Source: Duodenibacillus massiliensis (GTDB taxonomy: Bacteria > Pseudomonadota > Gammaproteobacteria > Burkholderiales > Burkholderiaceae_F). Taken from it: 64,000 bases of DNA. The notes beneath the pieces are model-generated. The model worked only from the letters and a program-made list of their open reading frames with translations. It made no database searches and had not been told where the DNA came from. A program made the translations under genes and the position numbers. The stretch covers positions 453,242-517,241 of the forward strand of contig NZ_LT635859.1 of NCBI RefSeq assembly GCF_900128485.1, given 5' to 3'. Shown piece after piece: positions 26,596-33,152 of the stretch. Position 1 is the stretch's first letter. Every line of letters starts with the position of its first letter.

Positions 26596-26624
26596 TTGCA
26601 CAAATTCAGACTTCGCAGTAAAGT
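26596..26624 (+). promoter_or_regulatory. Candidate promoter of the aro leader
   Basis: TTGCAC (26596-26601) and TAAAGT (26619-26624) are separated by 17 bases. This would start a transcript about 60 bases before the Phe/Tyr leader peptide. Confidence 0.55.
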
Positions 26625-26691
26625 AAAGCCCGTTGCCGCCTGAAAAAGTCATGTTTTTTCAGGGTGCATGAACAAAATTTTGGAAGAAACG

Positions 26692-26778
26692 ATGCTTAAC
26701 CGCGCCGCCCGATTTTTTTATTACTTTTACTTTTTCTGCACACCGGCGGAAGGAGTGAGAGCGCGCACGAGTTTTTAA
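26692..26778 (+). CDS. Phe/Tyr-rich leader peptide of the DAHP synthase attenuator
   Basis: A 28-codon frame with its own ribosome-binding site (ggaag, 26682-26686). It encodes MLNRAAR, then the run FFYYFYFF at codons 8-15, then a short tail ending TSF and TAA. Five Phe and three Tyr in eight consecutive codons is the hallmark of leader peptides that sense charged tRNA-Phe and tRNA-Tyr, as in enterobacterial pheA. A terminator (26801-26831) follows 22 bases after the stop, and the DAHP synthase gene lies downstream. Function is inferred from composition and position. Confidence 0.88.
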   Translation: MLNRAARFFYYFYFFCTPAEGVRARTSF

Positions 26779-26800
26779 GCACGACTTCGAAAGAACCCCG

Positions 26801-26831
26801 ACCGCCTGGCCATCAAGACCCGGCGGTTTTT
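26801..26831 (+). terminator. Attenuator terminator before DAHP synthase gene
   Basis: The stem ACCGCC (26801-26806) pairs with GGCGGT (26822-26827) and is followed by a five-T run (26827-26831). The 3' arm region CCCGG (26819-26823) can instead pair with CCGGG at 26842-26846, and a further hairpin (26841-26846 with 26856-26861) follows. Alternative folds are therefore available for attenuation. Confidence 0.75.
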
Positions 26832-26912
26832 GTTTCTCAGGCCGGGCGAAAAGAACCCGGCGGTGTTTGGCAAAACGATTTTTTAACCGACACCGAAAGA
26901 AAGGACTGAAAC

Positions 26913-27974
26913 ATGCGCTACACAACCGATGACCTCCGCATCAAAGAGATCCGGGAACTTACGCCTCCGGCACACCTCATCCGGGAATTTCCCTGCGAAG
27001 AAGTCGCTGCCGACACCGTGCACCGCGCGCGTCTTGCCGCGCACGACATCCTGCACGGTAACGACGACCGATTGATTGTTGTGGTGGGACCCTGCTCCAT
27101 TCATGACCCCAAGGCCGCGCGCGAGTACGCCGAGAAACTCGCGGAAGTGCGCCGTAAGCTGCAGGGGGAACTTGAGATCATCATGCGTGTGTACTTTGAA
27201 AAGCCGCGCACGACGGTGGGCTGGAAGGGGCTCATCAACGACCCCGACATGGACGGCTCCTGCCGCATCAACCACGGCCTGCGAATTGCCCGTGAGCTCA
27301 TTCTTGACATCAACAACATGGGACTGCCCACGGGGGTTGAGTACCTCGACATGATCACGCCGCAGTACATTGCGGACCTTGTGAGCTGGGGCGCCATCGG
27401 CGCGCGCACCACGGAAAGCCAGGTGCACCGGGAGCTCGCAAGCGGTCTTTCCTGCCCCGTGGGCTTTAAAAACGCCACCAACGGTGCCGTGAAGATCGCC
27501 GTGGACGCCATCGGCGCGGCCGAACACCCGCACTCCTTCCTTTCCGTTACCAAGGGCGGCATCTCCGCCATTGTCACCACAACCGGCAATGAAGACTGCC
27601 ACATCATTTTGCGCGGCGGCAAGGAACCCAACTACGACGCAGAGTCCGTCAAAGCCGCCTGTGAGCTTTTGAAGGCCGCCGGTCACCGCGAAATGGTGAT
27701 GATCGACGCCTCGCACTCCAACTCCAAAAAGATCTGCCGCAACCAAATTTTGGTGGTGGACGACATCTGTGCGCAGGTTGCCGACGGCTCCAGTGCCATC
27801 ATCGGCGTCATGATTGAATCCAACCTCGTCGAAGGCCGTCAGGACATTACGCCTGATAAGCCCCTCACCTACGGTCAGTCGGTGACGGACGCGTGCCTCG
27901 GGTGGGATGACACCGTGAAGCTGCTTGAGAAGCTTGCGCGCGCCGTGCGCGACCGCCGCAGCCGCAACTGCTGA
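26913..27974 (+). CDS. 3-deoxy-7-phosphoheptulonate (DAHP) synthase, class I
   Basis: A 353-residue AroF/AroG/AroH-type enzyme. It condenses phosphoenolpyruvate with erythrose 4-phosphate as the first step of the shikimate pathway to Phe, Tyr and Trp. Landmarks are VVVGPCSIHDPKAAREYA (metal Cys), MRVYFEKPRTTVGWKGLINDP, WGAIGARTTESQ, GFKNATNG, IILRGG and MIDASHSNS. Length is typical. Which effector inhibits it cannot be read safely, but the Phe/Tyr leader upstream argues for a Phe/Tyr-responsive isozyme. An aaagga site precedes the ATG. Confidence 0.95.
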   Translation: MRYTTDDLRIKEIRELTPPAHLIREFPCEEVAADTVHRARLAAHDILHGNDDRLIVVVGPCSIHDPKAAREYAEKLAEVRRKLQGELEIIMRVYFEKPRTTVGWKGLINDPDMDGSCRINHGLRIARELILDINNMGLPTGVEYLDMITPQYIADLVSWGAIGARTTESQVHRELASGLSCPVGFKNATNGAVKIAVDAIGAAEHPHSFLSVTKGGISAIVTTTGNEDCHIILRGGKEPNYDAESVKAACELLKAAGHREMVMIDASHSNSKKICRNQILVVDDICAQVADGSSAIIGVMIESNLVEGRQDITPDKPLTYGQSVTDACLGWDDTVKLLEKLARAVRDRRSRNC

Positions 27975-32751: not shown

Positions 32752-33152
32752 CCGTGCGTTCTTTTTCTGCTGATGCGGCCGCTTTCTTTGATGAAGGAGG
32801 GAGTCGTTAGTGAAAGCGCCGTCCTTAAGGCCCGCTTCCCGCGCCGCCGGCGCAGACCGTGGAAACCCCGCCTTAAGAAATCAGGTGAGCGTGAAAATTA
32901 CCTGCATTTTCTGCGGCTTCCGGCTCCGGATGAAAGCCGCCGCCCGACACGGTTTTCTTAAAAGGCGACGGATGGTAGCACTGTGTTTTGCCTAGGTAAA
33001 GTACCTTAGTCAAAAATTTCCCGTAAAGACGGCATTTTCCGGACTGGGACTTACCCTTAAGCCGCAGAAACGGGACGAAAAAAAAAAAAAAGAAAAAAAA
33101 GCCCGGCCGAAGCAAAGAATTGCTGGACCGGGCCTCATGCCGCAGAAAACCG
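32752..33152. other. Intergenic region DMT gene/tusA-like gene
   Basis: No gene is supported. The region holds a purine tract (14 A, G, 8 A; 33078-33100) and the terminator of the alaS-tusA unit. Confidence 0.5.
33093..33133 (-). terminator. Terminator of the alaS-tusA unit
   Basis: The stem GCCCGG (33101-33106) pairs with CCGGGC (33128-33133), with inner AGCA/TGCT pairing. On the minus strand it is followed by eight T, a C and fourteen more T. Confidence 0.85.

Follow-up and report, generated by a model that had tools for sequence, protein, structure and literature searches.

The AroG-type DAHP synthase gene of the window (the whole 64-kb stretch of DNA that was analysed) is preceded by a short leader reading frame rich in Phe and Tyr codons, by an intrinsic terminator and by a leader strand that can pair with the terminator 5' arm in place of the 3' arm. 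Leader and pairings are conserved among relatives and, in the genomes examined, confined to this type of gene. From the sequence, the arrangement is very probably a classical ribosome-mediated transcription attenuator of the sole DAHP synthase gene found in the genome, a reading to which we give a probability of roughly 0.88; ribosomes would stall and transcription would terminate at the leader. The features are located as follows.

26596-26624, forward strand: promoter-like pair, with -35 TTGCAC at 26596-26601, a 17-nt spacer and -10 TAAAGT at 26619-26624.
26682-26687, forward strand: SD-like GGAAGA of the leader ORF, ending 4 nt 5' of the ATG.
26692-26778, forward strand: leader ORF MLNRAARFFYYFYFFCTPAEGVRARTSF, 28 codons, with ATG at 26692 and stop TAA at 26776-26778 (from the sequence and from relatives).
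26713-26736, forward strand: aromatic stall codons 8-15, FFYYFYFF (from the sequence; the run is kept in relatives).
26725-26739, forward strand: segment 1, predicted to pair with 26746-26760 when the leader folds freely.
26743-26749, forward strand: segment 2, CCGGCGG, codons 18-20, the antiterminator strand, whose core is the same as the terminator 3' arm.
26801-26809, forward strand: segment 3, the terminator 5' arm ACCGCC(TGG), which pairs with segment 2 or 4 and whose CCGCC columns are invariant in the 42-leader alignment.
26822-26831, forward strand: segment 4, the terminator 3' arm GGCGGT (26822-26827) plus U-run (from sequence, alignment and covariation).
26913-27974, forward strand: AroG-type DAHP synthase, 353 aa, matching E. 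coli AroG chains at E 3e-153.

The original prediction held that a 28-codon leader with its own ribosome-binding site encodes FFYYFYFF at codons 8-15, that a terminator at 26801-26831 follows 22 bases past the leader stop, and that the gene of the first shikimate enzyme lies 3' of the leader. Leader and terminator are present as described, in the sequence and by script, with ACCGCC (26801-26806) and GGCGGT (26822-26827) as the terminator arms and the U-run reaching 26831, and the gene is the AroG-type DAHP synthase at 26913-27974. An in-frame ATG at 26668 would give a 36-codon version of the leader ORF; in the comparison with relatives, congeneric leader starts match 26692, not 26668. On both strands of the 64-kb window, the leader is the sole ORF of 8-60 codons with at least 7 F/Y/W per 8 codons, the second-ranked ORF having 6 in 8, and 0 of 2000 dinucleotide shuffles of the 300-nt upstream region gave 8/8 aromatic codons (2 gave 7). 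Other F/Y runs of the window genome lie in the atpB-atpE gap, in a TAC repeat and in a poly-T run (the ORF at 33010-33138); the run in the atpB-atpE gap was rejected as a leader on inspection of that place.

Transcription would start near 26631, from the promoter-like pair. Among nine aligned congeneric loci, TTGCAC is found in 6 and TA[AG]AGT in 7 by an eye count. A generic consensus scan listed neither the pair at 26596-26624 nor the leader terminator. Just 3' of the presumed transcription start, a near-perfect inverted repeat, CTGAAAAAGTCATGTTTTTTCAG, occupies 26640-26662; it was not seen by eye in the 8 other aligned congeneric loci.

Directly behind the aromatic codons, the core GGCGG (26745-26749) has the sequence of the terminator 3' arm and is complementary to CCGCC (26802-26806). 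The antiterminator is likely formed by 26743-26749 (CCGGCGG) and 26802-26809 (CCGCCTGG, one bulge), a 2:3 helix of 5 bp ungapped or 7 bp with one bulge in the window. A different pairing competing with the terminator, between 26819-26823 and 26842-26846, had been proposed earlier. Its complementarity (CCCGG/CCGGG) is there, but it was rejected as switch and cannot be an antiterminator, because the partner is transcribed only after the U-run. In the window alone the antiterminator is weak, its 5-bp core being no better than chance (29/100 shuffles reach it), and the case therefore rests on relatives. GG[CT]GG stands behind the aromatic run in 100 of 104 leaders (duplicates and two leaders without a terminator found by script having been removed), and the other 4 carry a related piece, for example CTGGCG. 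Only the following columns of the 42-leader alignment are invariant: four G's in segment 2, the CCGCC and GGCGG columns, and two T's in the U-run.

The E. coli pheA/pheL, pheST and trp leaders work by a 1:2 / 2:3 / 3:4 pairing logic. For the window leader, it is proposed that with ample charged tRNA-Phe and tRNA-Tyr the ribosome would run through the leader, and segment 2 would be masked or re-paired with segment 1; segments 3 and 4 would then form the terminator and transcription would stop 5' of the gene. Masking by a ribosome at the stop codon would be incomplete, since 26 nt separate segment 2 from that codon. When Phe or Tyr is short, the ribosome would halt in codons 8-13 and cover segment 1, and segment 2 (CCGGCGG), left free, would pair with segment 3 ahead of the synthesis of segment 4, so that the polymerase reads on. 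With the leader upstream of segment 2 hidden and the nascent RNA ending before segment 4, the 2:3 pairing is predicted to fold in 100 of 100 leaders, all chosen beforehand for having the segment 2 core; when no part of the leader is hidden, it is predicted in 50/100, the window leader not among them. The 1:2 fold is strong in the window leader (z -2.96 against shuffles); over the 100 leaders, the segment 2 core is paired upstream in 73, and the mean z of the 1:2 fold is modest at -0.89. When either fold is forced in the window leader, the terminator (-24.7 kcal/mol) is 3.5 kcal/mol more stable than the antiterminator (-21.2 kcal/mol), and the forced antiterminator is the more stable fold in 41/100 leaders and not in 59/100. 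As the terminator is often the more stable fold, the switch must be kinetic.

Conservation was assessed in the upstream regions of orthologues, taken from 50 loci of relatives and from the best 80 of 591 matching contigs; five same-record loci and two with too little upstream DNA were dropped, leaving 123 regions. A leader, defined as an ORF of at most 60 codons with at least 5 F/Y/W in 8 codons, is present in 106 of the 123 regions. The same definition fits 66 of 2460 dinucleotide shuffles and 3 of 693 random windows of 300 nt. Since many of the 123 regions are closely related, these leaders count as non-independent events. The 17 regions in which no leader was found come from genus g4 of the same family (both genomes examined), from ten order-level relatives and from five named contigs. 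The check that had been suggested, aligning the leaders of relatives, shows the Phe/Tyr run and the mutually exclusive stems to be conserved (106/123 regions; 42-leader alignment), and this conservation strongly supports ribosome-mediated attenuation of the DAHP synthase gene through Phe/Tyr codons.

A T run can accidentally code for Phe and the genome has other pyrimidine runs, which could be taken to mean that the leader is a chance U-rich tract ahead of an ordinary constitutive terminator. Conservation and reading-frame phase make this extremely improbable, as does the next upstream ORF, which lies on the opposite strand. The A residues within the aromatic runs are at the second codon position in 239 of 300 cases, where Tyr codons require them, and the runs are therefore not a mere pyrimidine tract. 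Ribosome arrest might also be caused by the nascent FFYYFYFF peptide in response to free aromatic amino acid, rather than by tRNA charging, with TnaC as the model. The residues behind the run (P-L-A-E type) are common to many leaders, which would suit such a peptide; however, it is the GGCGG strand that encodes them, and where the sequence around that strand changes, they change too (Oxalobacteraceae-type ...PKAVE). The aromatic run itself varies in order and length, and peptide arrest is considered very improbable.

A covariance model of the leader, searched against 61 genomes, gave 37 full-length matches at E 1e-5 or better, in 35 genomes. Thirty-six of them lie 21-96 nt 5' of, and on the same strand as, the DAHP synthase gene. 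The 37th is close to the end of a contig; in that genome the DAHP synthase stands at the start of a different contig. No strong model match was obtained in 13 of the 48 genomes with an AroG-type match, one of which (G029) has a leader by eye. Across the class, 4 of 229 genomes besides the window genome have strong full-length matches, two of them within the order of the window genome and two in a different order, and the ORFs behind the two other-order matches (L199, L200) resemble DAHP synthase by eye. Weaker matches (E 3e-4 to 0.1 in the 61 genomes, E 7e-5 to 0.01 in the 229) were mostly terminator-only and were not counted. Two individual leaders deserve mention. At about 1456-1563 of L204 (G245, another order of the class), which came up among the weaker matches, a leader ORF ending ...ACFFYFSFFSPALGG is followed by a hairpin with GGGGGTTTGG and precedes a different DAHP synthase (MSYSVLKKLPPVEEV...); it is possibly an independently evolved Phe/Tyr attenuator. 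In Candidatus Burkholderia humilis (L064), inspection by eye shows the leader leaving the reading frame of its relatives after FYFYF; segments 2-4 and the terminator look intact, and decay of the sensor is possible.

The terminator is found by script behind 109 of 111 leaders and is visible by eye in the remaining 2. A terminator with a U-run kept this widely argues against the alternative that translation of the DAHP synthase mRNA, and not termination, is controlled. The mRNA may form a second hairpin between terminator and gene (CCGGG/CCCGG, 26842-26861), which lends this alternative some weight, but we regard it as highly improbable.

Covariation was measured in the 42-leader alignment against 500 shuffles, with a structure drawn from one of the sequences, which favours that structure, and with relatedness ignored. 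For the 2:3 pairing, cells changed on both sides number 23 (12.6 in shuffles), with a covariation score of 0.130 (0.074 in shuffles), neither value being reached in any of the 500; there is no excess in the number of pairs with both-side changes (3 against 3.5 expected; 482/500 shuffles as high) or in pair types (9 against 11.0 expected; 483/500). The 3:4 pairing has 17 both-side changed cells against 3.9 and a score of 0.157 against 0.091 (0/500 shuffles as high in each case), with 27/500 shuffles as high for pairs with both-side changes and 254/500 for pair types. Paired cells amount to 81% (2:3) and 92% (3:4), compared with at most 48% and at most 59% for slid partners. Columns 68 (segment 2), 172 (segment 3) and 187 (segment 4) change together, both sides being altered in 9 of 42 leaders per pair. 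When the partners of 74 distinct segment 2/3 combinations were permuted, pairing beyond the core was 2.01 for matched partners and 1.39 on average for permuted ones (0/5000 as high, kinship ignored). This excess comes entirely from the 5' side of segment 2, and the 3' side has no extension excess (5000/5000 permutations as high). On some measures, then, covariation appears to back both the 2:3 and the 3:4 pairings. Altogether, three features by which an attenuator is recognized are found together: a short translatable leader with clustered end-product codons, an intrinsic terminator between leader and gene, and, behind the stall codons, an antiterminator mutually exclusive with the terminator, for which two of the five 2:3 covariation measures are without excess.

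The gene at 26913-27974 is the sole DAHP synthase match in the window genome at E 0.001. By alignment, its product carries Ser where E. coli AroG has Ser211 (FLSVTK), and by this site it is Phe-type. AroF-type paralogues, 26 of which are among the matches listed, have 46-53% identity; all 19 that were fetched have Gly at the Ser211 position, and 0 of these 19 have a leader or terminator. In the genomes examined, the leader is thus restricted to the AroG-type gene. Neither a TrpR domain (PF01371) nor a TyrR-like HTH (PF18024) was detected in the window genome at E 0.001 by a search that finds both in E. coli, which fits the view that the wiring here is unlike the TyrR control of E. coli. In the same family, genera g9 (9/9 genomes) and g11 (12/12) have no AroG-type DAHP synthase at E 1e-110, and in four of these genomes a limit of E 0.001 gave none either; another DAHP synthase type may be in use there, or aromatic synthesis may be lacking.

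No Rfam leader family (Phe, Trp, His, Leu and Thr leaders) matched the region, either at gathering score or with a permissive limit of E 10. Multivalent leaders are known from ilvGMEDA, whose leader carries codons for several end products of a branched pathway; it shares this multivalence with the window leader and differs in that its codons are for branched-chain, not aromatic, amino acids. An attenuator of the aroR-aroF genes of Corynebacterium glutamicum is reportedly the subject of Neshat et al. 2014. The leader peptide of C. glutamicum aroR contains Phe-Tyr-Phe (PMC11802643). The layout given in the papers, an aromatic leader peptide before a DAHP synthase gene under ribosome-mediated attenuation, resembles that of the window; aroR differs in its phylum, in an aromatic run that is shorter as described, and in that only Phe is effective (PMC11802643). 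The uORFC-13-1 motif before aroF in Acholeplasma, likened here by its description, is likewise predicted to combine a Phe-containing uORF with a terminator ahead of a DAHP synthase gene; it differs in having at least one Phe codon and has been reported from Acholeplasma and environmental sequences only (PMC8632094). The E. coli pheA/pheL, pheST and trp leaders (PMC11802643) differ from the window leader in controlling other genes, with one amino acid each. They have stall codons for the end product in common with it. Predicted tyrA-linked attenuators include those of DAHP synthase > tyrA operons in Vibrio and of a gyrA-serC-pheA-tyrA cluster in Bordetella (PMC1173090); the AroG-type gene treated here was not found among the predicted attenuators in the available portion of that paper, and the available main text of PMC2965389 contains no aroG, aroF, DAHP, phenylalanine or tyrosine. 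The ncS35 RNA of B. cenocepacia was rejected as an earlier report of the leader, as it lies elsewhere in that genome (PMC5760752). Attenuation of DAHP synthase is thus already known (C. glutamicum aroR) or predicted (Acholeplasma), and its Burkholderiales form appears unreported: no DAHP synthase attenuator in Burkholderiales was found in open-access full texts. A bare prediction may exist in older subscription-journal comparisons, in supplements or in attenuator databases.

The window leader has Phe and Tyr codons. Among the 106 leaders, 65 combine Phe with Tyr codons, 36 contain Trp codons besides these two, 3 contain Phe alone and 2 combine Phe with Trp; Trp codons thus occur in 38 of them and both Phe and Tyr in 101. 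A mixture of Phe and Tyr in one leader, which the original prediction had called unusual, is instead the rule (101/106), and aroR of C. glutamicum is a published precedent. Across the 106 leaders, Phe codons outnumber Tyr codons by 491 to 222. If a ribosome is taken to cover about 13 nt ahead of its A site, codons 8-13 are far enough from segment 2 for a ribosome halted there to leave it free; both amino acids could therefore count, and the window leader would sense both charged tRNA-Phe and charged tRNA-Tyr.

Whether codon content follows the enzyme can be considered in Mesosutterella (genus g2), where the AroG-type gene is doubled in 5/5 genomes, with one Ser and one Gly copy at the Ser211 site. 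In alignments this site reads FLS in E. coli AroG and FVG in the Tyr-sensitive E. coli chain (6agm). Ser211 of AroG presumably corresponds to Ser219 of yeast Aro3. In yeast-type enzymes, Ser or Gly at the site goes with inhibition by Phe or Tyr in plate assays (PMC10349828). The Ser (Phe-type) copies have Phe-rich leaders (FCFSFGFF, FYFTFNFF, FYFYFGFF) in 5/5 genomes, and the Gly (Tyr-type) copies have Tyr-rich leaders (FYYYGYYLY, YGAYYYYGFF) in 4/5; upstream of the Gly-type copy of G063 (L157, upstream of 1501), neither leader nor terminator was found. F:Y codon counts are 15:3 for Ser copies and 3:11 for Gly copies over five distinct runs (Fisher p 0.0009, the codons not being independent). 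In gene trees the two copies group within each species group, so that either repeated duplication or gene conversion has to be assumed. The two copies of G010, and likewise those of G061, have 95% DNA identity but differ at the Ser/Gly site and in their leaders. Among 67 genomes of the family searched, no genus besides Mesosutterella has two AroG-type copies, and the pattern therefore represents one genus, possibly one event. The loci examined outside Mesosutterella that have one readable copy carry Ser, with mixed leaders or none.

These observations also bear on the reading that the attenuator works but that only Phe shortage counts, the Tyr codons being passive, as reported for C. glutamicum aroR. 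That gene is induced by Phe limitation and not by Tyr availability (PMC11802643), and both the excess of Phe codons and the Phe-type site of the window enzyme would fit. However, other papers on aroR name Phe and Tyr (PMC7356990) or probably Tyr (PMC11525245). Moreover, Tyr codons are kept in 101/106 leaders, Tyr-dominated leaders precede the Gly-type copies in 4/5 Mesosutterella genomes, and codons 10, 11 and 13 of the window leader are placed such that a ribosome halted there should not cover segment 2. Sensing of Phe alone is thus considered unlikely, if far from negligible. It is on balance probable, if only just, that the leader is an order-wide multivalent aromatic attenuator (Phe and Tyr, in about one third also Trp) whose codons are tuned to the feedback specificity of the enzyme. 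In Mesosutterella, sensor and allosteric site would have diverged together after duplication (Phe-rich with Ser-type, Phe-inhibited; Tyr-rich with Gly-type, Tyr-inhibited), the match being kept even at 95% gene identity.

If true, this attenuator would explain how many Burkholderiales control entry to the shikimate pathway without TyrR. An easily recognized leader family, not listed in Rfam 15, would be added. The gene pair of Mesosutterella would provide a natural experiment on how, after gene duplication, the specificity of an RNA sensor changes together with that of the allosteric site of an enzyme.
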